Assembly: GCF_007994135.1 (NCBI RefSeq)
Contig: NZ_VLKF01000001.1
Location: 1,240,001-1,304,000, forward strand
Source of the DNA: Modestobacter roseus
Lineage (GTDB): Bacteria; Actinomycetota; Actinomycetes; Mycobacteriales; Geodermatophilaceae
DNA: 64,000 bases
Direction of reading: 5' to 3'
Part shown: in pieces, positions 11,251-38,821 of the stretch
Layout: each line of letters opens with the position of its first letter
How positions within the stretch are numbered: position 1 is the stretch's first letter
Translations under genes and position numbers: made by a program
The notes under the pieces: generated by a model
What the model saw: only the letters and a program-made list of their open reading frames with translations
Told to the model about the DNA's origin: nothing
The model's database searches: none

Positions 11251-11312
11251 CCGCCCGCTCGTCCGTTCCGGTGGCCGCGCCCTCGGGCGCGGCCACCGGC
11301 GAGAGGATCACC

Positions 11313-21703: not shown

Positions 21704-21859
21704 GACGACCGCCTGCGCGGGGTCCGCGACTCCGGTGCGGTCCCGGGGCGCGTCGGCCCCGGCCAGGCGCACGGCCGACCGCAGCTCACCTGCTGGAACC
21801 CCTCAGGCACGGGCGGTCCTCGATCCAGTCGTGGTCATGGGGCGACCGTCCAGGTGGCA

Positions 21860-23242
21860 CTAGCGGTTGGCAGTCTTGATCACCTTCGCGAAGTACGGCG
21901 TCGGGGCGACTGTCGCACGGATCTCCCGGAGCTGGTTGCGGCCGACGTTGTCGCGCTTGCTGCCGGGTTCGCCCCACAGCAGGGTCAGTTCCGTTCCGGG
22001 CTCGGCCAGCTCCTGGGAGATGATCCCGTGCGAGAGGACGTGGCCGGCGTTCGCGGAGAACGACATGTACTGGGAGAAGCCGATCGTCTCGCCACCGCTC
22101 TGGACGGCGTCCGCCGCCCAGGTCGAGTACATGGGCGAGGGCAGTGCGATGAACTGTGCAGGGAGCTTCGGGTCGAACAGTGCCGAATTGATCGCCGCTG
22201 CGACGTCCTCGTCGTTCCAGACGAGCGTGACCTTCGTCCGACGCTGGTTCTCCGCGCGCTCCACCAGGGCGCCACGACCGAGGAAGTCCCTGTCCCAGTC
22301 CACGAGCCGCTCGTATCCGGCCTCGATGGGGTCGACGTAGTAGTTCTCGATCCGGTCGCACGACAAGCTGCCGCCGAGTGACCCGAACGCCTCCAGGGAG
22401 AAGGCACTGACCCACTCCCGGTAGGGCCGCATCCGCTCGCCGTGGTAGATCGCCGGCAGCGGCAGGGGAAGCCAGCCCGATTCCTGGGCAGTGGTCGCGT
22501 AGGCGAGTGCTCCGACCTTGCGCAGGCCGTACTTCTCCCCAGCTGCCTGGAACGCCTCGCGCACCGCCTCCTGATCCGCCCAGGGGCCGTAGAGCTCGAA
22601 GCCCGGGGTGCCGGCCATGCCGTGCCGGAGGGCCCGGATGTCCTTCCCCGCGATCCGGACGTCGCCGACCGAGAAGAACCCGACCTCCGGCAGGGGACCT
22701 TCGACCACCTCGGTCACCAGCTCAAGCGCGCGCGGCCCCTGGACCTGGAAGCGGAACACGTCACGGGGAGCTTCGACGACCGACCAGTTGTGATCCAGCT
22801 CGGCGGTGACGCCGTGGCCGGAGTTCTCCGCGTGGTACTTCACCCAGTTGAGGGCGAAGGGTGCGCCGACGACGCGCAGGAAGTCGGCCTCCTCGTGGAA
22901 GAGGATCGCATCGCCGACGAGGTAGCCGTCGTGACTGGCCAGGACGATCTGCTTGGCCTTGCGGACGGGGAACGGATCGAACCTGTTCACCGCGATGGTG
23001 GACAGGAAAGGAACGATGTCCGTGCCGCGCAGGTGCAACTCGGACATGTGGTACGACTGCTCGAGGAGCGCGACCTCGTCCTTCCATGCCCGTACCTCGT
23101 CACGCCAGTTCGTGAACTCCGCCGGGATCCCGGGGAACACGTACGGACCGAGCTGGCCAGGTCCGCGCAGGAGCTCCACAGGGCCACCGGCCATCTGGAG
23201 CTTCTGCTCCAGGGTCTGGGGGATGTCGGCGGTGCCGGTCAT
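21860..23242 (-). CDS. THF-dependent O-demethylase, GcvT/LigM family (copy 1)
   Basis: 460 residues, the usual length for LigM-type aryl O-demethylases (about 470). N-terminal folate-binding domain with 'PAEFTNWRDEVRAWKDEVAL', 'LEQSYHMSELHLRG' and 'FRFQVQGPRALEL'. The central 'RALRHGMAGTPGFELYGP' is the hallmark of this aminomethyltransferase branch, followed by 'ATTAQESGWLPLPLPA' and a C-terminal barrel with 'LTLLWGEPGS'. These enzymes move a methyl group from a methoxy-aromatic (vanillate, syringate) or similar donor to tetrahydrofolate. It is encoded just after its own ribose-type importer, suggesting that transporter brings in its substrate. Close to copy 2 (27912), more distant from copy 3 (35079). 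Confidence 0.83.
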   Translation of the reverse strand: MTGTADIPQTLEQKLQMAGGPVELLRGPGQLGPYVFPGIPAEFTNWRDEVRAWKDEVALLEQSYHMSELHLRGTDIVPFLSTIAVNRFDPFPVRKAKQIVLASHDGYLVGDAILFHEEADFLRVVGAPFALNWVKYHAENSGHGVTAELDHNWSVVEAPRDVFRFQVQGPRALELVTEVVEGPLPEVGFFSVGDVRIAGKDIRALRHGMAGTPGFELYGPWADQEAVREAFQAAGEKYGLRKVGALAYATTAQESGWLPLPLPAIYHGERMRPYREWVSAFSLEAFGSLGGSLSCDRIENYYVDPIEAGYERLVDWDRDFLGRGALVERAENQRRTKVTLVWNDEDVAAAINSALFDPKLPAQFIALPSPMYSTWAADAVQSGGETIGFSQYMSFSANAGHVLSHGIISQELAEPGTELTLLWGEPGSKRDNVGRNQLREIRATVAPTPYFAKVIKTANR

Positions 23243-23293
23243 GGTCGTCCTCTCTCGGGGTGCTGGGCATTGCCGTCTCGTTGCGGCCGGGAT

Positions 23294-23322
23294 CGGAGAG
23301 CCTCACCGGGTGAGGCTCTCCG
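23294..23322 (-). terminator. Stem-loop across the permease stop codon
   Basis: Fourteen-base arms (23294-23307 and 23309-23322) are exact reverse complements around one base, so in practice a stem of about 12 bp. It covers the permease stop at 23303-23305, between transporter and demethylase. It could stop part of the transcription or protect the upstream mRNA, making transporter and enzyme levels differ. Confidence 0.5.
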
Positions 23323-24382
23323 CCCGCTCGGGCGCGGGAGGCGCTGATCCCTCCGCCTCGTCGCCTCCCTGACGTCGGCCGAAGGGGAAGGCGCGGCGGA
23401 TGGCGCCGGTGCGGGCAGACGGTTTCTCCCACTGGGAGAGCCCCACGGCAGCGAGGAGTGCGATGCCGTTGAACAGGTCGCTGATCCAGGGCGGCCCCCC
23501 GATCAGCTGGAGACCCTTGATGCCCGTGGCGAGCACGTAGACGGCGATCACCGTCCCCCACACGTTGAACCGGCCGCCCTTGAACTGCGTGGAGCCGAGG
23601 AACACCGCGGTCAGCGCGGGCAGCAGCAGGCCGGGTCCGACCGTCGGCTCGCCCGTGTTGAGTCTGGAGGTCAGCAGCACACCGGCCATCGCGGCGATCG
23701 CCCCACCCGCAACCAGGGCGCCGATGCGGAGGCGGACCACGTGCACGCCCGCGAGCCGGGCGCCGTCCGGGTTGTAGCCCGCGGCGTACATCCGGCGTCC
23801 CACCGGGGTGCGCTCGAGCACGTACCAGACGACGAACGCCAGCACGAGCATCACGTAGGCCGGCACCGTGATGCCGAGCAATCTGCTCGTCGCGATGCTC
23901 CGGAAGCCCTCCTGCAGCCCCACGACCTGCTGGCTGGAGGACATCCATGCCAGAGCCGCGAGCAGGATCGAGCTGAGCCCGAGGGTCGCGATGAACGAGT
24001 CGATGCGGCCCTTCGTGATGATGAGTCCCGAGACGAGGCCGACGAGGGCCCCCGCCAGCAGGGTGAGCGGGATGGCCATGGCGAACGGGATGCCGGCCTT
24101 GACCTGGAGCACCGCGACGAGGATGCCGGCGAAGCCCACCTCAGCGCCGATGGCGAGGTTGAACGAGCCCGTGACCAGCGGGATCATCACCCCGATCGCC
24201 GCGATGACGGTGATCGCCTGGGCGTCCAGGAGAGTGCGCCACACCCCCTCCTGCAAGAAGGTCTGCGGCGTCACGAGCGAGAACACCACGAAGATGAACA
24301 CGAAGATGTAGATCGCGCTGATGTTCCGGAACGACAGCAACCGGAGCCGCTTCTGGTTGGTCGTCACCTCGCTGCTGCTCAT
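23303..24382 (-). CDS. RbsC-type ABC transporter permease
   Basis: 359 residues. The ATG at 24382 overlaps the stop of the ATPase gene only by reading order (ATGA at 24379-24382). Family landmarks are 'MIPLVTGSFNLAIGAEVGFA', 'GRIDSFIATLGLSSIL' and 'GYNPDGARLAGVHV'. About ten hydrophobic segments are followed by a charged C-terminal tail rich in Glu, Pro and Ala. It is the membrane partner of the ATPase and binding protein encoded upstream. The gene order binding protein-ATPase-permease-demethylase suggests import of a methylated aromatic or an analogous methyl donor. Confidence 0.87.
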   Translation of the reverse strand: MSSSEVTTNQKRLRLLSFRNISAIYIFVFIFVVFSLVTPQTFLQEGVWRTLLDAQAITVIAAIGVMIPLVTGSFNLAIGAEVGFAGILVAVLQVKAGIPFAMAIPLTLLAGALVGLVSGLIITKGRIDSFIATLGLSSILLAALAWMSSSQQVVGLQEGFRSIATSRLLGITVPAYVMLVLAFVVWYVLERTPVGRRMYAAGYNPDGARLAGVHVVRLRIGALVAGGAIAAMAGVLLTSRLNTGEPTVGPGLLLPALTAVFLGSTQFKGGRFNVWGTVIAVYVLATGIKGLQLIGGPPWISDLFNGIALLAAVGLSQWEKPSARTGAIRRAFPFGRRQGGDEAEGSAPPAPERAESLTR

Positions 24383-25947
24383 GGGTGCTCCCCGTCTCTC
24401 ATCGCCGGCGGCACGGTCGCCCGCGCCAGTCCGTAGCCCTGGAGCACCAGCTCCGACTCGGTCAACTGCTCGCCCGACAACTCGGCGACGATCTGCCCCT
24501 CGCGCATGACCAGCACGCGGTCGCACAGCCGGACCAGTTCCTTGGCGTCCGACGAGCACACCAGCACGGCCGTGCCGCGGGCCGCCGCCTGGTCGATCTC
24601 GGCGTACAGGGCCTGCTTGGCACCGATGTCGACGCCCTGCGTCGGTTCCTCCAGCAGCAGCACCCGCGGGTCGTTGCGCAGCCACTTGGCGAACACGATC
24701 TTCTGCTGGTTGCCGCCGCTGAACCGGGCGAACGCCTGCTCGGGTCGCGCCGGCCGGACGTCGTACCGATCGACCAGGGCGCGGGCGAGCCGCTGCTCCG
24801 CGGCGGAGCGGAGCGCGCCCCCGGGTCCCGTCAGGCTCCCCAGCTCGGGCAGGGTCATGTTCTCGCGCGCGTTCATCGCGCGGATCCCGCCGTAGCGAGC
24901 CCGGTCGCCGGCCACGAACGCCAGGCCGCGGCGGACGCTCTCCCGCGGGGTGCGGTCGGGATAGGACGTGCCCGACAGCCAGTAGTGGTCGGCGTCCGCC
25001 CTGGTGCCGCCGAACACGAGGGAGGGCAGCAGATCGCGACCCGATCCGAGGACCCCCGCGACACCGACGACCTCGCCCGCGCGCAGCTGGAGGTCGATGC
25101 CTCGCACGCCGGGCGCTCGCAGGCCGGCGATGTCGAGCACGATGTCGCCGGCGGGGGATCTGTCGACCGGGCTCTCCTCCTCGTGCGCGGCCGCCCCTGT
25201 CACCAGCTCGACGAGTGCGTCGTGGTCCAGCGAGACCGCGGCGACGTCGGAGACCTTGCGGCCGTCTCGGAGCACCACGACGCGGTCGGCGATGCCGAGG
25301 ACCTCGTCCAGGCGGTGGGAGATGAAGACGACGCCCGCGCCCGCGTCGGCGACCCGGCGCACGGCGTTGACGAGGATCTCGACCTCGGTGGCGTGCAGGG
25401 CTTCGGTGGGCTCGTCGAGGATGAGCACGTTCCTCGCGTGCGTCCAGCCGTCCAGGGCGCGCGCGATCGCGATGATCGACCGCTGCGCCGGTGCGAGTCT
25501 GCTGATCGGCAGGTCGACGTCGAAGGCTTCCCCGAAGCGGGAGATGAGCTCGCGCGCCCGTTCCCGCTCATGACGCCGGCGCGTGGGCGCCAACCCACCC
25601 GGTGCACCGACCCCGAGGTTCTCGACCGCGGTGAACTCCGAGACGAGTCCCAGGTCCTGGTGGATGATGTGGAGTTCGGTCGCTTCGTCTCCTCCGCCGG
25701 CGAAGGAGACGGTGCCCTCGTCGGCGGTGTGGACACCGGCGAGGATCTTGACGAGCGTCGACTTCCCGGAGCCGTTGTGGCCGACGATCGCCACGATCTC
25801 GCCGCTGCGCACGTCGAGGGAGACGTCGTCGAGTGCGCGCAGTCCCGGGAAGTCCTTGACGATCCCGGTGGCTCGCATCAGCGGGTCCCCGCCCGCCTGG
25901 CCGGCGCCCCGGGCGGGCGCCGACGCAGGCGGCGTGGTCTCGACCAT
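24379..25947 (-). CDS. RbsA-type duplicated ABC ATPase
   Basis: 522 residues from the ATG at 25947, two bases after the binding-protein stop. First domain: Walker A 'GHNGSGKST', degenerate signature 'LAPAQRSIIAIARAL', Walker B 'VLILDEPTEAL'. Second domain: 'GVLGSGRDLLPS' in place of a full P-loop, signature 'FSGGNQQKIVFAKWL', 'VLLLEEPTQGVDIG' with Glu where Asp is usual in Walker B. Same build as the ATPase at 11313, so the window holds two related importers. It powers uptake through the permease encoded next. Confidence 0.9.
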   Translation of the reverse strand: MVETTPPASAPARGAGQAGGDPLMRATGIVKDFPGLRALDDVSLDVRSGEIVAIVGHNGSGKSTLVKILAGVHTADEGTVSFAGGGDEATELHIIHQDLGLVSEFTAVENLGVGAPGGLAPTRRRHERERARELISRFGEAFDVDLPISRLAPAQRSIIAIARALDGWTHARNVLILDEPTEALHATEVEILVNAVRRVADAGAGVVFISHRLDEVLGIADRVVVLRDGRKVSDVAAVSLDHDALVELVTGAAAHEEESPVDRSPAGDIVLDIAGLRAPGVRGIDLQLRAGEVVGVAGVLGSGRDLLPSLVFGGTRADADHYWLSGTSYPDRTPRESVRRGLAFVAGDRARYGGIRAMNARENMTLPELGSLTGPGGALRSAAEQRLARALVDRYDVRPARPEQAFARFSGGNQQKIVFAKWLRNDPRVLLLEEPTQGVDIGAKQALYAEIDQAAARGTAVLVCSSDAKELVRLCDRVLVMREGQIVAELSGEQLTESELVLQGYGLARATVPPAMRDGEHP

Positions 25948-25949
25948 TC

Positions 25950-27131
25950 CTACTTCCCCCAGAGCGCGGCGAAGTCGTCCGCCATGCCGGGGTACGCGAC
26001 GAACCCGTTCGGGTACTCGTCGGCGGTCGCGGGTGTGATCACCCGCGAGATCGCCTTGACCCAGGGAAGCCAGTCGCCGTACTCCACCTCGAGGCCCTGG
26101 TGCCGGCGCAGGCCCTCGTCGAGCATGAACCAGCTGTACTGGTTGTAGTCGACGGCGAGCCCCGCAGCCTGCAGGCCGGAGCCGATCTGTTCGATGTTCG
26201 GCGGCAGGGACGACTGACCCATGCCGGGCACGTCGAGGCCGGCCAGGTCCTGCTTGGCCTTCAACCCGATCTGCATCTGATCGGCCGAGGTGATGAAGAA
26301 GTCGGTCTCCGGGTGCGCCTGGAGGTCGCTCACGATCGCGTCCCCGGCGGTGGTGTCCATCGTCGCGACGGGGATGTCGACGACGCGGAGGGTGCAGTCG
26401 GGGCAGGTGTCCTCCAGGTAGGCCTCGGCGGCTTCGAGCTGCACCTGGGAGAACGAGAACTCGGGCACCCTGTAGAACACGAACTCGGTGCTGGTGCCGC
26501 ACGTGAAGGTGATCGCTGCGGCGGCGAGCACCTCGCCGTTGACGAGGGAAGCGCCCCTGCCGGAGTGCGAGTCGAGCAGGCCGAACTGCTCAGCGTTGCT
26601 GTTGCCCGCGTACACGACGGTGGTGCCGGCCTCCTCGAGCGCTTCCAGGTGGTTCTGGAAGAACGTCGCGTCCACCGCCGGCGAGATGAGGATGTCCGGC
26701 GCGCTCTCCACGACCGAGCCGACCGCCGTGTTCACGCTCTGGGCGTCCAGGCCGGCATCGATCCGCTGGAGCTGCACCCCGGCGGTCTCAGCGGCCTGCT
26801 CGATGCCCGCGTAGATGATCGACCCGACGGCCGACCCGTTGTCGAGGACGGCCACGGTCGTGGACGGGTCGACCGGCTCGGGAAGCGGTTCCGTCTGCGG
26901 CAGCCCGGTCGACGCCTCCTCGAAGTAGGCGATGCGCTCGCTCGCTGTCTCGTAGTCGATGCCCTCGAGCGGCTCAGCGGCGCACTCGCCGTCCGCGTCC
27001 CGGTAGACGACATCTCCCGAACTGCCCTCGCTGCCGGCATCCCCGCCGTCCGAGCTGCATCCGGCGACGCCGAGCGTCGCCGCGGTCAGCGCGGCGAGGA
27101 GCGTGACGCGCGATCTGGCGTTCGTGCCCAT
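25950..27131 (-). CDS. PBP-I-type ABC substrate-binding lipoprotein
   Basis: 393 residues with a lipoprotein signal (lipobox V-A-G-C near residue 25) and an acidic, Ser/Gly-rich linker. The mature part reads as a type I periplasmic binding protein: 'TTVAVLDNGSAVGSIIYAGI', 'SAPDILISPAVDATFFQNHL' and 'TSADQMQIGLKAKQDLAGLD'. Cysteine pair 'CGTS...CPDC' may form a disulfide, as in the first transporter's protein. It is the first gene of the transporter-demethylase operon and lies about 127 bases downstream of a strong promoter. The ligand is unknown; a methoxylated aromatic is a reasonable guess from context. Confidence 0.82.
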   Translation of the reverse strand: MGTNARSRVTLLAALTAATLGVAGCSSDGGDAGSEGSSGDVVYRDADGECAAEPLEGIDYETASERIAYFEEASTGLPQTEPLPEPVDPSTTVAVLDNGSAVGSIIYAGIEQAAETAGVQLQRIDAGLDAQSVNTAVGSVVESAPDILISPAVDATFFQNHLEALEEAGTTVVYAGNSNAEQFGLLDSHSGRGASLVNGEVLAAAAITFTCGTSTEFVFYRVPEFSFSQVQLEAAEAYLEDTCPDCTLRVVDIPVATMDTTAGDAIVSDLQAHPETDFFITSADQMQIGLKAKQDLAGLDVPGMGQSSLPPNIEQIGSGLQAAGLAVDYNQYSWFMLDEGLRRHQGLEVEYGDWLPWVKAISRVITPATADEYPNGFVAYPGMADDFAALWGK

Positions 27132-27264
27132 GCGGTATCCCTTCTCATGGCAGCCGCCTGGGAGAAGGCAGGCGACGTTGCCTGGGTGGTGCGGACGGCG
27201 GAGCCTGAGGCGTCACTACAGCCTGCTCGGAATCCAGATACCGATTTGACTCCGTGTGCGGAGG

Positions 27265-27293
27265 AGTATCCTGAGTGGGTTCGGGCGTGTCAA
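27265..27293 (-). promoter_or_regulatory. Strong sigma-70-type promoter of the transporter-demethylase operon
   Basis: On the minus strand: -35 TTGACA (27293-27288), 17 bases, -10 GATACT (27270-27265). Predicted start is near 27258. Just downstream is AAATCGGTATCT (27235-27246 on the minus strand), close to the CTGATCGGTAT motif at 29403 and 9967. Confidence 0.7.
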
Positions 27294-27864
27294 GGGTCAC
27301 AACCGTGGACGTTGCGCCCGGAACGTGATGGTCTGCATCGATCACTGCGAGGTGGTCCTGCGTACGGCTGGACGAGCCGCACGGGCGCGACGCGTCCTCG
27401 ATCGCGGCACGGGGGCGCCCGCCACCGGAGTTCGGGGCGACCGCCCACGGCCCGGCCGGGCGGGACGCAGCCGGCGGCATCGTCGACCCGCATGCCGGCG
27501 AGGCCGGGCTCCCGGCGGTCGCCACTCCGTTCGGTGCCGACGTCGTCCCGTGGCACATGCCCTGCCCGTGCCGGCTGTGGCGGTCCCTGTCCGGCCCGGT
27601 GCGGCGGTTCGCCGCCCTGGTGGACGTCGCGATGCTCGCGCTCCACGCGCGCCAGGCGTCGACCACCCGTCCAGCCGGGAGGCTCTGGCCCGGTCCCTGG
27701 CGCCCCTCACCGCAGCGGCTCGAGGTCCGCCGAGCGCCGAGGCCGTCCCGGGTGACGGGACCGGTGCCCAGGGGGCCGCCGAGTTCATCGGGCGGGCCCG
27801 GCTCCACCCGTCGTCGACCGGCCGGAGCTCCGGCGGAGCAGTGTTCGCGCGCCTCGGGGCCGAA
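27294..27864. other. 571-base stretch without a recognisable gene
   Basis: Between the strong promoter at 27265 and the hairpin at 27865, several GC-rich open frames run through on both strands. None has a ribosome site, a known motif or convincing codon bias. It may be decayed coding DNA, but I could not match any piece to a family. Confidence 0.4.
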
Positions 27865-27900
27865 CGGCCGTCCCCCGGCTCGAGCGCCGGGGGACGGCCG
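27865..27900 (-). terminator. 15-bp stem-loop terminator of the second demethylase gene
   Basis: Arms 27865-27879 and 27886-27900 are perfectly complementary with a 6-nt loop, 11 bases past the stop. The strongest hairpin in this half of the window. Confidence 0.7.
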
Positions 27901-27911
27901 CTGGCGTCGGG

Positions 27912-29288
27912 CTACCGCTGGTCGCGCTTGATCACCTTGTCGAAGTACGGCGCGGGAGCCACGGTGACCCGGATCTCTCGGACCTGGTGGGCGTCGACGG
28001 TCCTCCGCTGGCTGTCGGGCTCTCCCCACAGCAGGGTCAGCTCGGTTCCCGGCTCGGCGAGGCTCGTGTCCACCAGCGCCTCGGAGATGACGTGCCCGGC
28101 GTTGGCCGAGTAGGCGGACCACTGGGAGACCCCGATGTTCCGGTCACCGTCGAGCACCGCGTCGGACTCGAACGTGGCGTACATCGGGGTGGGCAGGGTC
28201 AGGAAGCGGCCGGGCTCGTCGCCGAAGAGCGACGACGTGATGGTGGCGCTCACGTCGTCGTCGTTCCAGACCAGGGTCACCTTCCGGCGGCTCTGGTTGG
28301 CGGCCTTCTCCCGCAGGGCGTCGCGGCCGACGAAGTCGCGGTTCCAGTCGACCAGCCCGCCGTAGCCCACCTCGATCGGATCGACGTAGTAGTCGCGGAT
28401 GTCGTCGGAGACCAGGCTGCCGCCCAGCGACCCGATCGTCTCGAGGAAGTAGGCGTTCAGCCACTCCCGGTAGGCCTTCATCTCGGTGCCGTGGTAGATC
28501 GCCGGCAGCGGCATGGGCATCCACCCGGACTCCTGCGCGGTGGTCGAGTACGCCAGGGCCCCGACCTTGCGCAGGCCGTACTGCTCGCCGGCCTTCTCCA
28601 GCGCCTCACGCACCGCCTGCTGGTCGTCCCACGGTCCGTAGATCTCGAAGCCCGGGGTGCCGGCCATCCCGTGGCGCAGTGCGCGGACGGTCTTCCCGGC
28701 GATGGTCATCTCGCCGACCGAGAAGAACTTGACCTCGGGCACCGAGCCGCCCGCGACCTCGCTGACGAGCGCCAGCGCCTGCGGACCCTGCACCTGGATG
28801 CGGAAGACGTCGCGCGGGTGGGGCTGGACCGACCAGTTGTCGTCCTTCTCCGCGGTGACGTCGAAGGGGGTGTCCTGTGCGTTGAACAGCAGCCAGTCGC
28901 TGGCGAAGGGTGCGCCCACGACCCGGAAGAACTCCTCGTCCTCGCGGAAGAGGATCGCGTCGGCGATCATGTTGCCGTCGTGGCCGGCCAGGACGATCTG
29001 CTTGGCCTTCTTGGCGGGGAAGGGGTCGAACTTGTTGATCGCGAACTGGGAGAGGAAGGGGATCACCTCCCGACCGCGCAGGTGGAGTTCGGTCATGTGG
29101 TAGCTCTGCTCGAGCAGTGCGACGCCCTCCTTCCACGCCCGCGCCTCGTCGCGCCAGTTGGTGAACTCCGCCGGGATCCCGGGGAAGACGTACGGGCCCA
29201 GGTCGGAGCTGCGGAGCAGCTTCACCGGACCTCCCGCCTGGTCCATGAGGGACTGGAGCGACAGTGGGGTTCCGCCAGTGTGAGTCAT
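27912..29288 (-). CDS. THF-dependent O-demethylase, GcvT/LigM family (copy 2)
   Basis: 458 residues, close to copy 1 throughout: 'GIPAEFTNWRDEARAWKEG', 'LLEQSYHMTELHLRG', 'RALRHGMAGTPGFEIYGP', 'TTAQESGWMPMPLPA' and 'LTLLWGEPDS'. A perfect GGAGG precedes the ATG. It has its own promoter (29389-29418) and its own terminator (27865-27900), so it is a single-gene unit. Having copies 1 and 2 so alike but separately controlled suggests recent duplication and specialisation to different methoxy-aromatics. It would feed methyl-THF to the metF-folD-purU genes nearby. Substrate not shown by sequence. Confidence 0.83.
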   Translation of the reverse strand: MTHTGGTPLSLQSLMDQAGGPVKLLRSSDLGPYVFPGIPAEFTNWRDEARAWKEGVALLEQSYHMTELHLRGREVIPFLSQFAINKFDPFPAKKAKQIVLAGHDGNMIADAILFREDEEFFRVVGAPFASDWLLFNAQDTPFDVTAEKDDNWSVQPHPRDVFRIQVQGPQALALVSEVAGGSVPEVKFFSVGEMTIAGKTVRALRHGMAGTPGFEIYGPWDDQQAVREALEKAGEQYGLRKVGALAYSTTAQESGWMPMPLPAIYHGTEMKAYREWLNAYFLETIGSLGGSLVSDDIRDYYVDPIEVGYGGLVDWNRDFVGRDALREKAANQSRRKVTLVWNDDDVSATITSSLFGDEPGRFLTLPTPMYATFESDAVLDGDRNIGVSQWSAYSANAGHVISEALVDTSLAEPGTELTLLWGEPDSQRRTVDAHQVREIRVTVAPAPYFDKVIKRDQR

Positions 29289-29388
29289 GAGAATCCTCCC
29301 CGGGCCACGTCGTCGTGGGCCCGATACGTGTGCCAGCCGCTGGAGTCCCGCCTGCCGTGACGGCTGTGACTGAAACCACAGATGCTGA

Positions 29389-29418
29389 ACGGTATTGAAA
29401 ATCTGATCGGTATGTCAA
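29389..29418 (-). promoter_or_regulatory. Promoter of demethylase copy 2
   Basis: Minus strand: -35 TTGACA (29418-29413), 18 bases, -10 TACCGT (29394-29389). CTGATCGGTAT occupies 29403-29413, between and touching the -35, where a bound repressor would block polymerase. The 29289-29640 gap holds this promoter, a leader of about 94 bases, and otherwise nothing recognised. Confidence 0.6.
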
Positions 29419-29640
29419 GGGTCATGGCGACGGCAGCGGGACGCAGTCCGCCCATCCGGTCGCGGCTGCAGTCCCACCCCTGCTGGCACCCCGCAGACGT
29501 CTCGCGCAGGTCGGCGCCCCGTCGCCCCTGACAGGCCGGCCGGTAGGGCCAGCACCACCCTCCAGCCCCCGGCGACGCGCGTCGTCGACGCGCTGGAGGA
29601 GCCCCACGCCGACAGCAGCGGGGCGGTCGTCGCACGTCGC

Positions 29641-31868: not shown

Positions 31869-32059
31869 CGCCTGACCGGCTCTGCGTGTGGACGCACGCC
31901 GTGGGGGGCGCGTGGACCGGATGCGCCGAGGAGGGGTGCCGCGCGCCAGCCGCGCTCGTCGAGGTGCCACGCCGTCAGGACGCGGTGGGGTGACGGGAAC
32001 CGGAGCGCCTCGCCGGTGTCCAGGTCGTCGAAGCGGGCCCACGGTCGGGCGGTGGTCAT
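31865..32059 (-). pseudogene. 64-codon pabB-like N-terminal fragment kept in frame between folD and folC
   Basis: The ATG at 32059 overlaps the folD stop and its TGA overlaps the folC start, so it fills the gap exactly. Residues 7-34 ('ARFDDLDTGEALRFPSPHRV', then 'LTAWHLDE') look like the start of aminodeoxychorismate synthase component I (PabB) of actinobacteria. The rest is Arg/Pro-rich and unlike any part of that enzyme. It could be a truncated pabB left as a translational bridge, or a real small protein. The family match is from memory of the motif, not an alignment. Confidence 0.5.
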
Positions 32060-32919
32060 CGCCGTCCGGTGCTCTGCTGGACCCTGGCGGCGGTGAGGGT
32101 GTTGGCCAGCAGCATGGCGATCGTCATCGGGCCGACACCGCCGGGGACGGGGGTGATCGTGCCGGCCACCTCGGCGACGGCGTCGTACTGGACGTCACCG
32201 GTGAGGCCGTGCTCGCCGCGGTGGATACCCACGTCGATGACGGTGGCGCCCGGCTTCACCGCGTCGGCGCCCACGAGGGAGGGGATGCCGGCGGCGACCA
32301 CGAGGACGTCGGCGCGGCGGCACTCGGCGGCCAGGTCGCGGGTGCGGGAGTGGCAGATGGTCACCGTGGCGTTGCGCTCGAGCAGCAGCTGGGCCATCGG
32401 CTTGCCGACGAGCACCGAGCGGCCGATCACCACCGCGTGCGCCCCGGACAGCGGCACGCCGTGGCGGTCCAGCAGCTCGATCACCCCGGACGGGGTGCAC
32501 GGGCGCAGGCCGGGCCGCCCTTGCGCCAGCAGACCGGCGTTGGCGGTGGTGAGCCCGTCGACGTCCTTCTCCGCCGGGATGCGGGTGAGCAGTGCCTCGG
32601 CGTCCAGGTGCCCGGGCGTGGGGAGCTGCAGCAGGATCCCGGAGACGGCCGGATCAGCAGCCAGCTCGTCGAGCAGCGCTGCCGCCTCGTGCTGGGGGAC
32701 GTCCCCGGGCAGGTGCCGGTGCAGATCGACCATGCCGGCGGCGACGCAGGCGCGGCGCTTGCTGCGGACGTAGACCTCGCTGGCGGGGTCGTCGCCGATG
32801 AGCACGGTGGCCAGACCGGGGGCGGTGCCGCCGGCGGCGACCAGCTCGGCCACGCCCTTCGCCACCTCCTCGCGGACCTGCTGCGCGACGGCCCTGCCGT
32901 CGATGATCTCTGCGGTCAC
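32056..32919 (-). CDS. folD: Methylene-THF dehydrogenase / methenyl-THF cyclohydrolase
   Basis: 287 residues from the GTG at 32919, six bases after GAGGAG. Catalytic Tyr-Lys pair in 'YVRSKRRAC', folate-site 'LLQLPTPGHLD', 'EKDVDGLT', NADP site 'GRSVLVGKPMAQLL' and the C-terminal 'PVPGGVGPMTIAML'. The bifunctional enzyme oxidises methylene-THF to formyl-THF. It stands between metF (methyl to methylene) and purU (formyl to formate), giving an oxidative path for methyl groups taken from aromatics. Ten bases separate it from purU. Confidence 0.94.
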   Translation of the reverse strand: MTAEIIDGRAVAQQVREEVAKGVAELVAAGGTAPGLATVLIGDDPASEVYVRSKRRACVAAGMVDLHRHLPGDVPQHEAAALLDELAADPAVSGILLQLPTPGHLDAEALLTRIPAEKDVDGLTTANAGLLAQGRPGLRPCTPSGVIELLDRHGVPLSGAHAVVIGRSVLVGKPMAQLLLERNATVTICHSRTRDLAAECRRADVLVVAAGIPSLVGADAVKPGATVIDVGIHRGEHGLTGDVQYDAVAEVAGTITPVPGGVGPMTIAMLLANTLTAARVQQSTGRR

Positions 32920-32929
32920 GACGAGCTCC

Positions 32930-33856
32930 TCAGAAGACGATCGTGGTGTTGCCGTGGACGGCGACGCGGTCCTCCAGGTGCCAGCGCACCGCGCGGGAGA
33001 GGACGGCGCGCTCGACGTCGGCACCCATCCGGACCAGGTCGGGGGTGTCCTGCCGGTGGTCCACCCGGACGACGTCCTGCTCGATGATCGGGCCCTCGTC
33101 GAGGTCGGCGGTCACGTAGTGGGCGGTGGCGCCGATGAGCTTCACGCCGCGTTCCCTGGCCTTGGCGTAGGGCCCGGCACCGATGAAGGCGGGCAGGAAC
33201 GAGTGGTGGATGTTGATCAGCGGCGCGCCGACGCCCTCCAGGAAGGTCGGGGTGATGATCTGCATGTAGCGGGCCAGGACCACCAGGTCGACGTTGCCCC
33301 GCAGCAGGTCCAGGATCCGGGCCTCGGCCTCGGCCCGGTTGTCCCTGGTGGCCGGCACGTGGAAGAACGGCACGCCGAAGGAGCGGACGTCGGTGGCCAG
33401 GTCGGGGTGGTTGCTGATCACCATGACCACGTTCATGTCCAGCTCGCCGCGGCGGTTGCGCCACAGCAGGTCCAGCACGCAGTGGTCGGTCTTGGAGACC
33501 ATGATCGCCACCCGCTTGGGCTTCCTGGCCTCGGTGAGGGTGAACTGCATGTCGAACTCGTCGGCCACGGTGGCGGCGAAGGAGCGCTCGAGCTCCTCGC
33601 GGGTGGCGGTGAGCCCGGGCAGGTGGAACTCGGTCCGCTGGAAGAACGTCCCACCTCCCTCGGCGGTGGAGAACTGGTCGAGGGTGACGATGTTGGCCCC
33701 CGCCCCGGCCAGGAACGTGCCGATCGCCGAGACGATCCCGGGCCGGTCAGCGCAGTGGATGAGCAACCGGCCGTGGTCGCCGTCATGGGCGCTGCTGACC
33801 GTGCTCGGCAGCGAGGGGGTGGACGGGCCGGCCGTCGTGGGGGGTGCGGTGGTCAT
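32930..33856 (-). CDS. purU: Formyltetrahydrofolate deformylase
   Basis: 308 residues: a Ser/Thr/Pro-rich leader of about 25, an ACT domain ('LLIHCADRPGIVSAIGTFL') and a formyltransferase-fold hydrolase with 'VISNHPDL', 'INIHHSFLPAF' and 'DLDEGPIIEQDV', which carry the catalytic Asn, His and Asp. It hydrolyses 10-formyl-THF to THF and formate. In methyl-compound catabolism (for example chloromethane gene clusters with metF, folD and purU) it frees THF for another round. A stem-loop (33912-33944) separates it from metF. Confidence 0.93.
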   Translation of the reverse strand: MTTAPPTTAGPSTPSLPSTVSSAHDGDHGRLLIHCADRPGIVSAIGTFLAGAGANIVTLDQFSTAEGGGTFFQRTEFHLPGLTATREELERSFAATVADEFDMQFTLTEARKPKRVAIMVSKTDHCVLDLLWRNRRGELDMNVVMVISNHPDLATDVRSFGVPFFHVPATRDNRAEAEARILDLLRGNVDLVVLARYMQIITPTFLEGVGAPLINIHHSFLPAFIGAGPYAKARERGVKLIGATAHYVTADLDEGPIIEQDVVRVDHRQDTPDLVRMGADVERAVLSRAVRWHLEDRVAVHGNTTIVF

Positions 33857-33911
33857 GACGTCTCCGTGGGGGACTCCCGGCGAGCGCCGGGCGGGCGAGC
33901 GAGGGGCTGGG

Positions 33912-33944
33912 CCGGCCGGCTCCCGCTGTGTGGGAGCCGGCCGG
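33912..33944 (-). terminator. Stem-loop between metF and purU
   Basis: Thirteen-base arms (33912-33924 and 33932-33944), perfect, with a 7-nt loop. It could attenuate or process the mRNA between metF and purU rather than end it, because no separate promoter for purU is evident. Confidence 0.5.
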
Positions 33945-33964
33945 GCTCCGGGGGCCGGTGAACC

Positions 33965-34828
33965 TCAGGACAGGTTCTGCAGCGTGCGCGTGCGCCAGGC
34001 CTCGGTGGGCTCGAGGTCGTTGAAGGTGAAGACGTGGAAGCCCGCGATGGCGTTGTCCGGCTTGCCGATGTGCGGCGCCAGGCCTCGGATGATCGTGTCC
34101 GGGCTGTAGCCACCTGGCACGAAGAAGCGCCAGAACAGGTTCTGCTGCTTCTTCAGGAACTTCGCGGACTCGCCGATGCCCAGGCCGCCGGAGACCCGCA
34201 GCAGCTTCTGCCGGGTCACCGCTCCCGGGACGCCGACGTGCACCGGCAGGTCGATGCGCCGCCGCTTGAGCTCCCGGGCCCAGGCGAGGATGACCTTCGG
34301 GTCGAAGACGATCTGCGTCTTGATGTGGGTGGCCATCGACGCCTTGTCCTCGAGCGCCTGGAACAGCACGTCCGGCCCGACCTCGGGGTGCCCCTCGGGA
34401 TGGCCACCGATGCCGATCTCGGTGAACCCGTGGTCCAGCTCGTGCAGCGCGCGCAGCAGGGAGAGCGCGTCCGTGAACTGGGTGGGGGTGTCGGCACGGT
34501 CCCCGCCGACGACGAAGACGTCGGTGATGCCGGCTTCGCGGCAGCGCGCCACGACGTCGGCCAGGTGGGCCCGATCGCGTACCTGCTGGGCGGACAGGTG
34601 CGGGGCCACGGTGTAGCCGTGGCCGACGAGCGACACGGCCAGCTCGACCGTCGCGTCCTGGCCCTTGGCGGGCGAGGCGGTGACGGTGAGCGGCACCTCC
34701 CTCGGCACGTTGGCGAGGACGGACTCCTCGGTCTTCTTGAAGGGGATCACCTCGTACCCCATCGCCTGGAAGACCTGCTTCAGCGAGGCCCGGAACACGG
34801 GGTCCCGGACGGAGAGGGCGCGGCTCAT
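33965..34828 (-). CDS. metF: Methylenetetrahydrofolate reductase (short, divergent MetF)
   Basis: 287 residues from the ATG at 34828, with AAGGAG upstream. It keeps the barrel landmarks: 'YEVIPFKKTEES' (the Glu matches the catalytic Glu of the usual 'FEFFPP'), 'APHLSAQQ', 'VFVVGGDRADTP' where most have 'ALRGD', 'IGGHPEGHPE' and 'QIVFD'. The departures from housekeeping MetF resemble the type encoded beside THF-dependent demethylases, where the enzyme is thought to run in the methyl-THF oxidising direction. It is 250 bases after demethylase copy 3, a gap with a short tandem repeat and no gene. Confidence 0.85.
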   Translation of the reverse strand: MSRALSVRDPVFRASLKQVFQAMGYEVIPFKKTEESVLANVPREVPLTVTASPAKGQDATVELAVSLVGHGYTVAPHLSAQQVRDRAHLADVVARCREAGITDVFVVGGDRADTPTQFTDALSLLRALHELDHGFTEIGIGGHPEGHPEVGPDVLFQALEDKASMATHIKTQIVFDPKVILAWARELKRRRIDLPVHVGVPGAVTRQKLLRVSGGLGIGESAKFLKKQQNLFWRFFVPGGYSPDTIIRGLAPHIGKPDNAIAGFHVFTFNDLEPTEAWRTRTLQNLS

Positions 34829-34880
34829 CTGGTCGGTGCTCCTTCGAGGGATCGGTGCAGGGCGGCCGCAACGGCGCGGC

Positions 34881-34911
34881 GGTGGGCTGGGCGGTGGGCT
34901 GGGCGGTGGGC
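34881..34911. repeat. 12-bp tandem repeat, about 2.6 copies
   Basis: GGTGGGCTGGGC at 34881 and 34893, with a partial third copy at 34905, in the gap between demethylase copy 3 and metF. Copy-number slippage is likely; no function is evident. Confidence 0.6.
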
Positions 34912-35078
34912 GCGGTCGGCCCGGCGGACCGGTGATCAGGGACCCGGGCGGGACGGCGTCCTCGCCCAGCACAGCCAGGCCGTGCGCCGCTGCGGCTGGT
35001 CGGCGCGGCACGGGACGGCCGGGACCGTGGCCGTGCGGTGGACGGGGGCTCGTCCCGCCCACCGCGCGGCGGGTGAGC

Positions 35079-36467
35079 TCAGCCCAGCCCGGCGTTGGAG
35101 CGGTACTCCGCGCGGGCCTTCGCGACCAGCGGCGCGGGCTGGACCGTTGCGCGGATCTTGACCTGCACGTGGTCCTCGACCGCGGGCTTGGACGACGGCG
35201 TCGGCTCGCCCCACACGACGGTCACCTCGGTGCCCGGCTCCGCGACCGACGCGTCGACCACGGCGACGGACAGGACCGACCGCTCGTTGGCGGAGTAGCC
35301 GGTGTGCGTCGAGCGCCCGATCAGGGCGCCGCTGGAGTTCTCGACCCGGTCGTAGTGGTAGGTCGCGAAGTGCGCGATCGGCAGGTTGAAGAACTTCGCG
35401 CCCACCCCGTCGTGGAACAGCGAACCGAAGGCCTTCTCGACGTCGTCGCCGTTCCAGACGAGCGTCACCTTCCGGTTGGCCTCGGCGCGACCGCTCGCCA
35501 CCTGCTGCTCGAGCGCGGAGCGGCCGATGAAGTCGTGGTCGAACTTGGTGATCCGGCCGTAGCCGACGTCGTAGGGGGAGAAGTAGTAGTCCTCGAGCTC
35601 CTCCGAGTACAGGCTCCCGCCCAGGGACACCGTCGCATCGATCTCGTCGGCGGCGAGCCACTGGCGGAACCCGGCGGTGCTGGCGCCGGAGTAGAACGCC
35701 GGCAGCGGACGGGGCAGCCACCCGGACTCGAGGCTGTTCGTCAGGTAGGCCCGCCCGCCGACCTTGACCATGCCGTGCTTCTCGCCGGCGGCCACGAGGG
35801 CGTCGACGACGGCGTCCCGGTCCTCCCACGGGCCGACGAACTCGAAGCCGGGCTCGGCAGCCATGCCGTGCCGGAGGGCGCGCACCGTCTTCCCCGCGAT
35901 GGTGAAGCGCGCGCCGTGGAAGAACTTGACCGTGGGGGGCTCGTCGCCGAGCGCGTCCCTGATCACGTCGATCGCGCCGGGTCCCTGGACCTCGTAGCGG
36001 TAGACCTTGGGGTTGCCCGCGCGGGCGTAGGAAGGGTTGTCCCGCCAGATCTCGACGTCGTAACCGCCGGTCTCCGCGTGGTACTGCAGCCAGTTGATCG
36101 AGGGCGGGATGCCGACGGCCTGGAACTCGTCCTCCTCGTTCCGGAAGAGGATGTTGTCCCCGATCAGGTGGCCCTCCTCGGTCGCTGCGACGTACTGCTT
36201 CGCGGCGTCCACCGGGAAGTACTCGACGCTGTTGACCGCGGTGTCGCGGATCAGCTTGAGCGCGTCGGGGCCCTTGATGTTCAGGTCGGCCATGTGGTGC
36301 GACTGGTCGAACAGCACCGACGTGCGCCGCCAGGCCAGCTGCTCGTCGCGCCAGTTCGTGAACTCCGGGGTCACCGGGGTGCTGACGATCGGCGGTGACT
36401 GCGACTCCCAGAGCAGGGTGTGCGCGCTGCCGGCCTCGGTGATGGCGTCTTCCAGATTGCGGGCCAT
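35079..36467 (-). CDS. THF-dependent O-demethylase, GcvT/LigM family (copy 3)
   Basis: 462 residues from the ATG at 36467, eight bases after GGAG. It has the family core ('TPEFTNWRDEQLAWRRTSVL', 'FDQSHHMADLNIKG', 'YRYEVQGPGAIDVI', 'RALRHGMAAEPGFEFVGP') but differs from copies 1 and 2 in 'SLYSEELEDYYFSPYDVGYG', 'HTGYSANERSVLSVA' and 'VTVVWGEP', which is nearer to classical LigM/vanillate demethylase. It lies between the ligJ-side genes and metF-purU-folD, so methyl transfer and oxidation are encoded together. Likely substrates are vanillate, syringate or 3-O-methylgallate; choosing among them is inference. Confidence 0.85.
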   Translation of the reverse strand: MARNLEDAITEAGSAHTLLWESQSPPIVSTPVTPEFTNWRDEQLAWRRTSVLFDQSHHMADLNIKGPDALKLIRDTAVNSVEYFPVDAAKQYVAATEEGHLIGDNILFRNEEDEFQAVGIPPSINWLQYHAETGGYDVEIWRDNPSYARAGNPKVYRYEVQGPGAIDVIRDALGDEPPTVKFFHGARFTIAGKTVRALRHGMAAEPGFEFVGPWEDRDAVVDALVAAGEKHGMVKVGGRAYLTNSLESGWLPRPLPAFYSGASTAGFRQWLAADEIDATVSLGGSLYSEELEDYYFSPYDVGYGRITKFDHDFIGRSALEQQVASGRAEANRKVTLVWNGDDVEKAFGSLFHDGVGAKFFNLPIAHFATYHYDRVENSSGALIGRSTHTGYSANERSVLSVAVVDASVAEPGTEVTVVWGEPTPSSKPAVEDHVQVKIRATVQPAPLVAKARAEYRSNAGLG

Positions 36468-36535
36468 GATCAGGTGCTCCTTCGAACCGTGGGGGTCGTG
36501 GGTGGTGGGTCGGTGGGGCGCGGGTCGGGTGGAAC

Positions 36536-37450
36536 TCAGTGGTCGGCGGACCGGCTGAACCGGGTGTCGAGGACGCCGGCCGCGGCATCTCGCCGGTCCT
36601 GGGGCAGCAGCCCGGCCTGGACCATCACCTCGACGGTGGAGTCGAAGGCTCGCGGTGACACGCGCAGGCCCTCGGGCCACATGCCGAGCCGGCGGGTGTA
36701 GTCCAGGCCGCGGGCGGCGAGCTCCGGCTCGTCGGGGGTGGTGATCCGCTGGTAGATCGGCGAGGTCACGGCGTCGTTCGCCGGGTCGTTGACGAAGGCG
36801 TGGCCTTCGGCCAGGGACGTGATCAGCCGGGTCACGGCGTCCTGGTTCTCCTGCAGCCACGGGGCGTTGCCGATGACCGCGGCGAAGATGATCTCCGGCA
36901 GCACGTCGGGGATCTCGCCGAGCAGGCCGTAACCCTCCCGCTCGGCGAGGAAGTTCCAGGGCGCCGGCTGGGGTGCGGCGTCGATCTCGCCGTCCTGCAG
37001 CGCCTTCCACCGTGCGGTGTGCACGCCGGCGAGGACGAACTCGTAGTCGTCCGGGTACCCCAGTCCGGCCTGCCGGAGCAGCTGCTGGGCGTAGATCGCC
37101 GTCCCCTCGGTCAGCGACGAGGTGCCGATCCGCCGGCCACGCAGGGCCGCCAGATCGGGGATCCCGGGCCTGGCGACGAGCGACATGGGCAGCCGCTCGG
37201 AGTTGGACCCGATGATCCGCAGGCCGCCGCCGGCCAGGTGGTCGGCGACCGCGCCCTCCGGCGGGGTGATGGCGAGGTCGGCCGTGCCCTCGCGCACTGC
37301 CGTGGTCGCCTTGTCGACCGAGCCGAGGCGCTGGTAGTCGATCTCGAGCCCGTTGCGGGCGAAGATGCCCTGCTCCTCTGCCACGAACACGGGGAGCCAG
37401 TTGAAGCCCTGCGCCCCCCCGGCGAGACGAACGGTCGTGGGTCCGGTCAT
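36536..37450 (-). CDS. Leaderless NMT1/SsuA-like periplasmic-binding-fold protein
   Basis: 304 residues. The fold matches SsuA/THI5-type binding proteins: 'RLAGGAQGFNWLPVFVAEEQ', 'GIFARNGLEIDYQRLG', 'GTADLAITPPEG', 'RRIGTSSLTEGTAIYAQQLL'. The protein begins directly with the first strand and has no signal peptide or lipobox, and no cognate permease or ATPase is nearby. It therefore probably acts in the cytoplasm. The binding fold is also used by enzymes such as 4,5-dihydroxyphthalate decarboxylase. The start overlaps the ligJ stop (ATGA), so it is co-made with the 4-oxalomesaconate hydratase and may be a decarboxylase, isomerase or sensor in the same pathway. Confidence 0.75.
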   Translation of the reverse strand: MTGPTTVRLAGGAQGFNWLPVFVAEEQGIFARNGLEIDYQRLGSVDKATTAVREGTADLAITPPEGAVADHLAGGGLRIIGSNSERLPMSLVARPGIPDLAALRGRRIGTSSLTEGTAIYAQQLLRQAGLGYPDDYEFVLAGVHTARWKALQDGEIDAAPQPAPWNFLAEREGYGLLGEIPDVLPEIIFAAVIGNAPWLQENQDAVTRLITSLAEGHAFVNDPANDAVTSPIYQRITTPDEPELAARGLDYTRRLGMWPEGLRVSPRAFDSTVEVMVQAGLLPQDRRDAAAGVLDTRFSRSADH

Positions 37451-38499
37451 GTCTGTGCTCCTCTCCTCGCAGGAGCAACTGCGCGCTCCTGGTCCTGCAG
37501 CCGCGCGTCGAGCAGCGGGTAGACCCGACGGGCGTTGCGCTCGAAGACCTGCTGGCGGGCGTCGTCGTCGAGCCCTGCGGCGTCGATGTAGCGCTTGGTG
37601 TCGTCGAACGGGTGTCCCGTCCTGGGGTCGTCCGTCTTGACGGCGCCCAGCAGCTCCGAGCCGAACAGGACGTTCTCCGGCCCGACGACGTCCAGGAGCA
37701 GGTCGATGCCGGCCTGGTGGTAGACGCAGGTGTCGAAGAAGACGTTGTCGCGGAGCTGGTCGACACGCGAAGGCGTGCCGAGCATGATCGCCAGTCCGCG
37801 GTACCGGCCCCAGTGGTAGGGGGCCGCGCCACCGCCGTGCGGGATGATCAGGCGGAGCCCGGGGTGCCGGTCGAACAGGTCGCCGTCCAGCAGCTGCATG
37901 AACGCGATCGTGTCGCCGGCGAGGTAGTGCGCTCCGGTCGTGTGCACCCCCGGCCGGGTGGACCCGGACACGTGGATCATCGCCGGGACCCGGGCCCGCT
38001 CGAGGGCGCTCCACAGGGGATCCCACCAGCGGTCGGTCAGCGGGGGCGCCGTCCAGGCCCCCCCGGACGGGTCGGGGTTGACGTTGCAGCCGACGAAGCC
38101 GGCGTCCACGCAACGCTCCAGCTCGGCCACTGCGGGCCCGAGGTCGCCGTCCACGGTCTGCGGCAGCTGGCAGACCCCGGCGAAGTTCCGCGGGAACATG
38201 TCCACGATCCGGCCGATCGTGTCGTTGGACAGGCGGGCCCACGCGTCGGCGACGTCCTGTCCCGGCACGTGGTGACCCATGGCGGAAGCGCGTGGTGAGA
38301 GCAGTGTGACGTCGGTGCCGCGCTCCTGCTGCAGCCGCAGCTGGTTGGTCTCGACGGCCGTGTGGAGGTCGGCGTCCGGGATGCCCGCGACGGGCGCAGG
38401 GGCGTCGCCGCGACCTTCGGCGAAGGCGACCTGGGCCGCGCGGTGGGCGCGGAACCCGGCGGGCTCGCTCGTGAAGTGACCGTGGCAGTCGATGATCAC
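37447..38499 (-). CDS. ligJ: 4-Oxalomesaconate hydratase (amidohydrolase family)
   Basis: 350 residues from the GTG at 38499, seven bases after GAGGAGG. It matches Sphingobium LigJ in several long segments: start 'IIDCHGHFTSEP', 'LLSPRASAMGHHV', 'FAGVCQLPQ', 'GCNVNPDPSGG', 'MIHVSGSTRPGVHTTGAHYL', 'IIPHGGGAAPYHWGRYRG' and 'NVFFDTCVYHQAGIDLL'. The enzyme hydrates 4-oxalomesaconate to 4-carboxy-4-hydroxy-2-oxoadipate in protocatechuate or gallate 4,5-cleavage. The next pathway enzyme, the LigK-type aldolase, is encoded at 44552. First gene of the long minus-strand run into the demethylase and folate genes. Confidence 0.9.
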   Translation of the reverse strand: MIIDCHGHFTSEPAGFRAHRAAQVAFAEGRGDAPAPVAGIPDADLHTAVETNQLRLQQERGTDVTLLSPRASAMGHHVPGQDVADAWARLSNDTIGRIVDMFPRNFAGVCQLPQTVDGDLGPAVAELERCVDAGFVGCNVNPDPSGGAWTAPPLTDRWWDPLWSALERARVPAMIHVSGSTRPGVHTTGAHYLAGDTIAFMQLLDGDLFDRHPGLRLIIPHGGGAAPYHWGRYRGLAIMLGTPSRVDQLRDNVFFDTCVYHQAGIDLLLDVVGPENVLFGSELLGAVKTDDPRTGHPFDDTKRYIDAAGLDDDARQQVFERNARRVYPLLDARLQDQERAVAPARRGAQT

Positions 38500-38821
38500 C
38501 GGCGACCTCCTCGTCGAACGGGCGTACTCCGGCGTGCCCGAGCTCGGGAGGGCAACGTCGCCGCGACCACCCCGCACCGGGCTGGCACGGCCAGACTGGC
38601 AGCGCGCCAACACCGAGAAAAGCGGATAAAACCGCACCATGTGATCGACTCCACCGAATTGCCGTTAATCGGATTAATCGACGTCACACCTCGACCTTCT
38701 CCGCTTTGCACGTGGATGTGAGCCCGGCAGACTCGGTCGGCACAGGTGCCGAACGGTGCGTACCGGCCGTGCGCAGCCGGGACGCCCGGGGGGGCGCCGC
38801 CAGGGAGACGAGGAGGTCCCC
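38500..38821. promoter_or_regulatory. Divergent promoter region of ligJ and the VAO-type oxidase, with 13-bp palindrome
   Basis: This 322-base gap is more AT-rich than its surroundings between 38610 and 38720. TTAATC-G-GATTAA (38665-38677) is a perfect 6-1-6 palindrome about midway, a good candidate operator for both directions. GCGG-ATAAAA-CCGC lies near 38623. No regulator gene adjoins, so the binding protein is unknown. Confidence 0.5.

Follow-up and report, generated by a model that had tools for sequence, protein, structure and literature searches.

A putative tetrahydrofolate-dependent O-demethylation block with extra FolP and FolC genes in Modestobacter roseus

In a 64,000-nucleotide stretch of the Modestobacter roseus genome (4.52 Mb, two contigs), hereafter the window, one block of genes combines three LigM/DesA-type methyltransferases and the one-carbon oxidation enzymes MetF, FolD and PurU with an extra dihydropteroate synthase (DHPS), FolP, and an extra folylpolyglutamate/dihydrofolate synthase, FolC. 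The block occupies window positions 20,933–38,499 and lies on the minus strand throughout. We think it rather probable that it is a unit for tetrahydrofolate (THF; H4folate)-dependent O-demethylation whose own FolP and FolC enlarge the H4folate pool. Related bacteria repeatedly show a similar pairing with folate genes, and this points to folate supply as an integral part of such catabolism.

Gene content and predicted pathway

In minus-strand order, starting at 38,499 and ending at 20,933, the block encodes LigJ (37,447–38,499), an NMT1/SsuA-like protein (36,536–37,450), LigM-type copy 3 (35,079–36,467), MetF (33,965–34,828), PurU (32,930–33,856), FolD (32,056–32,919), FolC (30,525–31,868) and FolP (29,641–30,528), followed on the same strand by LigM-type copy 2 (27,912–29,288), a CUT2-type importer (binding protein, ATPase and permease), copy 1 (21,860–23,242) and a DUF1932 dehydrogenase. 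A sequence-only reading of this DNA had proposed an actinobacterial THF-dependent demethylation block with one-carbon oxidation (MetF, FolD, PurU) and an added DHPS and FolC, and the gene content agrees with it: the three GcvT/LigM-type genes, metF, folD, purU, folC, folP and LigJ that it named are all on the minus strand within 21,860–38,499, although it missed the NMT1/SsuA-like gene between LigJ and copy 3. Its description of the block as self-contained goes too far, since no folE, folB, folK or pabB is among the block genes identified and the window has no LigB-type ring-cleavage gene.

Each of the three methyltransferases matches Pfam GCV_T at 119–130 bits. For copy 1 the match to the DesA and LigM models runs nearly full length, and copies 2 and 3 align over nearly their full length with structures 5tl4 (LigM; 391 and 444 bits, respectively) and 5x1i. 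A tyrosine six residues before ESGW (AYATTAQESGW in copy 1), which we take to be the catalytic residue of the LigM/DesA superfamily, is kept in copies 1–3 and in the LigM of a second cluster in this genome (see below); the pattern fits 52 of the 62 aligned segments overall. By full-length homology and this tyrosine the copies are assigned to the LigM/DesA superfamily, and demethylase activity is predicted for them.

MetF is divergent, with 39 bits to PF02219 and no NCBIfam match at E 1e-15. It scores 107 bits against structure 7xg9, presumably the methylenetetrahydrofolate reductase (MTHFR) of SYK-6 origin, vs. at most 31 bits against other MTHFR structures. Its closest structure and its linkage to LigM-type genes thus mark it as SYK-6-type, with oxidation of methyl-THF as its predicted role. 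According to passages of two studies, the MTHFR subfamily of SYK-6 has a preference for oxidising methyl-THF and evolved together with LigM (PMC13001107), and LigM and DesA yield 5-methyl-H4folate that is oxidised via MetF and FolD (PMC6888825). FolD (PF02882 222 bits, PF00763 118 bits) has two further genomic copies, and PurU (TIGR00655 397.9, cut-off 285.95) is one of only two over the family cut-off genome-wide (at 1,272,933 and 1,578,197), each lying within a demethylase cluster. Among the scanned proteins of 20,933–40,456 we found no match to CmuA or CmuB, which we take to be the corrinoid methyltransferases that mark the chloromethane-type metF-folD-purU-folC one-carbon module (the Cmu methyl transfer of plasmid pCMU01, compared below, being corrinoid, as the title of PMC3621897 also says).

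In the pathway that we propose, the three LigM/DesA-type enzymes would transfer the methyl groups of methoxylated substrates to H4folate; the resulting 5-methyl-H4folate would be oxidised to methylene-H4folate by MetF, and this in turn would be carried to 10-formyl-H4folate by FolD, after which PurU would free formate and regenerate H4folate, closing the cycle. FolP and FolC, presumably induced together with the rest, would add to the H4folate pool that the housekeeping genes provide and would polyglutamylate it. The block may have its own DHPS and FolC because folate would here be the stoichiometric methyl carrier of a growth pathway.

FolP and FolC of the block are extra copies beside a housekeeping set. 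Five proteins of the genome match Pterin_bind, of which four pass the DHPS model and the fifth has no match to it. The four are the block copy (TIGR01496 306.9 bits, cut-off 162.6), one beside the second demethylase cluster, one in a folE-folP-folB-folK run (307.3 bits; its FolE, FolB and HPPK identified by Pfam) and a divergent one (L024, 282.2). For FolC, the block copy (TIGR01499 346 bits, cut-off 162.65) and one other are over the cut-off. Identity to these counterparts is 69% for the block FolP (with the folE-operon copy) and 55% for the block FolC. The condition under which the sequence-only reading would have failed, that folP and folC here are the only housekeeping copies, is thus rejected by the presence of the folE-folP-folB-folK run and the other folC. 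In the block FolP, what we take to be the DHPS motifs look intact by eye, with one change: HWRGH is preceded by T, not M. The pabBC gene of M. roseus, at 1,625,016, lies outside both demethylase clusters.

The second cluster (L020; contig C1, 1,578,125–1,586,323), 0.3 Mb from the block, contains purU, folD, metF and ligM, and its LigM passes NF047885 (880.9, cut-off 580). Beyond ligM, on the opposite strand, are genes for FolP, a cytochrome P450 and a reductase. The P450 gene (L020 14121-15355) falls in two overlapping frames, a possible frameshift, and the Pfam P450 match is on one piece only.

Folate genes at related loci

MetF matches of any kind were found in 49 of 112 genomes of the Geodermatophilaceae: the window's own, 27 at 74–82% identity, 16 at 49–56% and five weak ones. 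The group of 27 comprises every relative at 74% MetF identity or above; about 10 kb was fetched to either side as far as the contig reached, and neighbours were called by tblastn with our own queries and a threshold of 70 bits, a procedure that very divergent neighbours would escape. Genes of ligM/desA type were found at 26 of these loci, folD at 25, pabBC at 23, FTCD at 17, folP at 14, purU and homologues of the second-cluster P450 at nine each, and folC at one, a frequent order being ligM, a second LigM/DesA-type gene, metF, folD, pabBC, FTCD, folP. PabBC combines aminodeoxychorismate synthase and lyase in one fused protein (TIGR00553 339.2, cut-off 328.4, plus Aminotran_4). We rejected a chance neighbourhood for folP, because 14 of 27 loci compare with ∼0.5 expected under an assumed chance rate of 1.8%, a binomial contrast that is overstated insofar as the rates are assumed and non-independent relatives are counted as independent. 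A genome of the same genus (G106) has the order folP-folC-FTCD-pabBC-folD-metF without ligM, near a branched-chain-type ABC importer and a 5-formyl-THF cyclo-ligase. Blastococcus sp. CPCC 205250 (L018) has folP and folC beside metF-purU-folD; its LigM-type proteins diverge strongly (32% and 43%) and possibly serve another substrate class. Modestobacter altitudinis (L019, NZ_SJEW01000028.1) also has such a cluster.

The 16 MetF loci at 49–56% identity divide into 13 beside glycine-betaine/dimethylglycine/sarcosine genes and three beside ligM-type genes. These loci were not chosen on folP, and by coordinates no fewer than nine of the 13 have a folP on their contig within 15 kb; the loci listed without it are those of G051, G049, G059 and G056, the first two near contig ends. 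Six extended glycine-betaine clusters, which like three more lacking the block-type MetF were picked because folP was present, read dmgdh-FTCD-folD-folP-sdaA-purU by tblastn, followed in five by folC and pabBC; in the G102 cluster the fetched stretch ends too early to show whether those two genes follow. Pfam confirmed the cluster of G054 (L103/L104). These glycine-betaine/sarcosine clusters (L103–L112, L115/L116), with their distinct MetF class, serve another pathway that passes methyl groups to THF, and look like a second folate-equipped demethylation system.

A FolP tree was built from local tblastn segments (53 rows, minus four same-locus repeats and the long rows L024 and L162, the latter counted as housekeeping by manner of selection only). 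In this unrooted tree a 99/99 branch splits 18 housekeeping FolPs from 19 methoxy-type and 10 betaine-type FolPs. The betaine-type FolPs form one clade (100/100), and a single clade for the methoxy-type FolPs alone is not rejected (p-AU 0.197). The window FolP is only 48% identical to the betaine type vs. the 69% noted above for the housekeeping copy, perhaps a consequence of the long betaine branch. We had considered that FolP was recruited at least twice and dropped this claim, since both cluster types share one side of the 99/99 branch; the tree is compatible with two separate recruitments and also with the spread of a single, dedicated FolP lineage into the two. A broader idea, on which we are evenly divided, is one of catabolic folate synthesis: H4folate-dependent one-carbon pathways of the Geodermatophilaceae would carry a dedicated late-folate lineage (FolP, in places FolC, with PabBC alongside). 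Shared between the methoxy-aromatic and the glycine-betaine type of cluster and set apart from housekeeping FolP, this lineage would let the pool grow with its pathway, in the way that B12 genes accompany corrinoid pathways.

Outside the family, 40 MetF loci were picked from the better-scoring matches in 396 Actinomycetota genomes, some on short contigs. MetF was near dmgdh/sox/gbcA at 33 of them and near ligM-type genes at four, with folC at seven and pabBC at one. G161 and G183 each have a second folC copy inside a ligM-metF-purU-folD cluster (split in G161), and the MetF-linked folC of G349, cut by the contig end, is likewise a second copy over the cut-off; in G304, G294, G367 and G194 the MetF-linked folC is the sole copy over the cut-off. 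The split folC of G161 (L122; G161:C1, ∼3494760-3495937) matches in two pieces, and a full copy is present elsewhere in that genome.

Competing explanations, substrates and neighbouring genes

Several findings weigh against a demethylation unit with its own folate supply. None of copies 1–3 passes the LigM model NF047885 (416.1, 461.4 and 530.0, cut-off 580) or the DesA model NF047633 (479.6, 505.5 and 559.0, cut-off 800), which leaves the earlier suggestion of vanillate, syringate or 3-O-methylgallate as substrate without backing from these models. The arginine of the LigM GRAP motif, which we take to be the carboxylate contact, is replaced by Ala, Ala and Ile (GAPF, GAPF and GIPP, respectively), while GRAP is intact in the LigM of the second cluster. 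Turning to the folate genes, the second-cluster folP is not on the ligM strand and adjoins the P450 and reductase genes. No folP lies within ∼10 kb at 13 of the 27 family loci, nor did it appear at the 12 of these that were extended by 2.8–10 kb on the folD side; folP is therefore not obligatory in the cluster, and folC occurs at a single locus. The clustered pabBC is the sole copy above 500 bits in 20 of 23 genomes (two copies in G088, G099 and G091). We accordingly dropped the description of pabBC as an extra copy; it is probably a housekeeping gene beside which the clusters formed, unlike the FolP of M. roseus, which is extra. Finally, folP was at none of the 40 loci sampled outside the family (folC at seven), and we gave up a general folP link beyond the Geodermatophilaceae.

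The same gaps in linkage (folC is missing at 26 of the 27 loci) and the strand of the second-cluster folP would be expected if the demethylation unit were real and folP and folC were neutral or historical passengers with no effect on flux, and the sole-copy pabBC suggests that it was the demethylase genes that moved in beside folate genes, not the other way round. We regard this as a serious explanation, though an unlikely one. The genome retains separate housekeeping folP and folC; cluster folP stands beside both demethylase clusters of M. roseus and in glycine-betaine clusters, with FolPs split from the housekeeping ones as described above; and the DHPS motifs of the block copy do not look decayed.

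A further question is what the methyltransferases act on. LigJ (6dwv 433 bits, 2gwg 373 bits), a 4-carboxy-4-hydroxy-2-oxoadipate (CHA) aldolase (44,552–45,226, minus strand) and a flavoenzyme of the vanillyl-alcohol oxidase (VAO)/4-allylsyringol oxidase type, divergent from the block (38,756–40,456, plus strand; 8s7n 323 bits, 9gov 315 bits), point to syringyl- or gallate-type aromatics; the flavoenzyme could mean entry of allyl- or alkyl-syringols. The aldolase passes NF006731 (319.4, cut-off 179), aligns with 3noj at 276 bits and falls slightly under the cut-off of TIGR02798 for ligK (294.5 vs. 304.5), ligK being, as we understand it, the gene name of CHA aldolase; a LysR regulator adjoins it (45,494–46,612, minus strand; PF03466 133 bits). 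LigB-type ring-cleavage dioxygenases occur at three places in the whole genome, none within the window. One is a LigAB locus (L198 9939-12988) ∼0.43 Mb from the window, whose aldolase is 55% identical to the window CHA aldolase; another LigB-type locus (L199 2125-3356) is likewise ∼0.43 Mb away. The demethylated catechol- or gallate-type product would probably be cleaved by the LigAB encoded elsewhere and then return to LigJ and CHA aldolase.

Copies 1 and 2 might instead use non-aromatic methoxy compounds such as methoxylated sugars or cyclitols, with only copy 3 serving aromatics. The two are 66% identical and form their own clade in a LigM tree (Shimodaira–Hasegawa-like approximate likelihood ratio test 100), a tree with long branches that does not place copy 3, and both lack LigM's GRAP motif. 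Copy 1 moreover shares a unit with a sugar-type importer directly upstream and a dehydrogenase. As the sequence-only reading had noted, transport lies close to a demethylase here: the CUT2-type ABC importer (23,303–27,131) consists of a permease (23,303–24,382; PF02653 124 bits, best models sugar permeases, all under cut-off), an RbsA/AraG-like ATPase (24,379–25,947; ABC_tran in two stretches, ∼350 bits to YtfR/AraG/RbsA models, under cut-offs) and a periplasmic binding protein (25,950–27,131; PF13407 36.8 bits, cut-off 35.1), all on the minus strand. The dehydrogenase (20,933–21,709, start set at 21709; PF09130 57.5 bits, 1i36 59 bits) is a DUF1932 NAD-binding protein resembling phosphogluconate and hydroxyisobutyrate dehydrogenases. 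The type of transporter says little, however, because the window has another sugar-type importer (Peripla_BP_4 plus a double ABC ATPase, 10078-12932) near genes for LysR and a ring-hydroxylase-like flavoprotein, and the LigJ, CHA aldolase and VAO-type genes speak against sugar or cyclitol substrates. We hold this split of substrates to be possible but doubtful.

The unit of transporter, copy 1 and DUF1932 gene is preceded by a predicted promoter-like site (27,265–27,293, minus strand; TTGACA-17-GATACT, 10 of 12 consensus bases), the sole such match on the minus strand of the region; both strands together gave two matches vs. a mean of 0.3 in shuffles. Elsewhere the genes are tightly packed: the ligJ stop overlaps the start of the NMT1/SsuA-like gene by four bases, that gene ends 68 bases before copy 3, and the folC stop overlaps the folP start by four bases. 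Wider gaps separate metF from copy 3 (∼250 bases), folP from copy 2 (∼350) and copy 2 from the transporter (∼780), and these may mean that the block is read as two or three transcripts. The NMT1/SsuA-like protein (PF09084 72.9 bits) has no obvious signal peptide by eye, and is possibly a cytoplasmic protein of that fold rather than part of a transporter.

Two other explanations concern FolP alone. Vanillate-type acids resemble p-aminobenzoate, and the extra FolP might be an isoform tolerant of benzoate-type substrates that could inhibit ordinary DHPS; the separation of cluster FolPs from housekeeping copies in the tree would suit this. Since folP also occurs at glycine-betaine MetF loci, whose pathway should involve no aromatic acid, pool demand is favoured over such tolerance, which we judge quite improbable. 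Extra DHPS copies are also a classical route to sulfonamide resistance, and we give hardly any weight to a resistance DHPS unrelated to catabolism, the block FolP being linked to one-carbon genes and scoring far under all cut-offs (Sul1 101 vs. 600, Sul2 117 vs. 575, Sul3 130 vs. 475, Sul4 205 vs. 600), much like the folE-operon FolP.

Should FolP and FolC be co-induced with the pathway, folate would serve here not just as a housekeeping cofactor but as a carrier whose amount scales with the pathway. This would change the engineering of THF-dependent lignin demethylation, where the cofactor pool could be a bottleneck, and would account for extra DHPS copies, kept by several actinobacteria, that could otherwise pass for resistance genes. 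Relatives that have the linked folP and relatives that lack it offer natural comparisons.

Comparison with known systems

Two of the systems closest to the block handle methoxylated aromatics. In Sphingobium sp. SYK-6, ligM-metF-ligH and desA share with it the LigM/DesA family, a MetF that co-evolved with LigM, and oxidation through FolD (passages of PMC6888825 and PMC13001107), and ligJ and ligK belong to a downstream regulon, as their counterparts lie in the window. The SYK-6 operon differs in having LigH (formyl-THF synthetase) where the block has PurU and, in the same passages of PMC6888825, in naming no FolP or FolC; SYK-6 also belongs to a different phylum. Thermophilic actinobacterial metagenome-assembled genomes have DesA-like aminomethyltransferases with metF and ligH, for which THF-dependent O-demethylation and a conserved methyl-transferring tyrosine are described as in the block; these genomes belong to other orders, and the excerpted text mentions no folate-synthesis gene (PMC9296663). 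A paper on dicamba demethylase (PMC9404685) makes no mention of metF, folD, folC or purU, nor of a cluster or cofactor. In open-licence PMC text we found no case of folP or DHPS with an O-demethylase or sarcosine oxidase, of pabB linkage, or of folC with ligM.

The sequence-only reading knew of no described system with the full gene set. That literature gave no precedent for folP, but folC with metF-folD-purU is already published. Plasmid pCMU01 of Methylobacterium extorquens CM4 (cmu, metF2, folD, purU, folC2) has metF-folD-purU and a second folC with a THF-dependent methyl pathway, like the block; unlike it, methyl transfer runs via Cmu proteins, the substrate is not aromatic, and the paper's table has no plasmid folP (PMC3621897). 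The glycine-betaine clusters of the Geodermatophilaceae (gbcA-like, soxBDA, dmgdh, purU, sdaA) resemble the block on the folate side, with folD, folP, purU and mostly folC and pabBC, while they serve N-demethylation and their FolPs form the separate betaine clade. What appears new in M. roseus is thus the joining of a LigM-type one-carbon module to extra late folate-synthesis enzymes, within which the folC linkage was already known.

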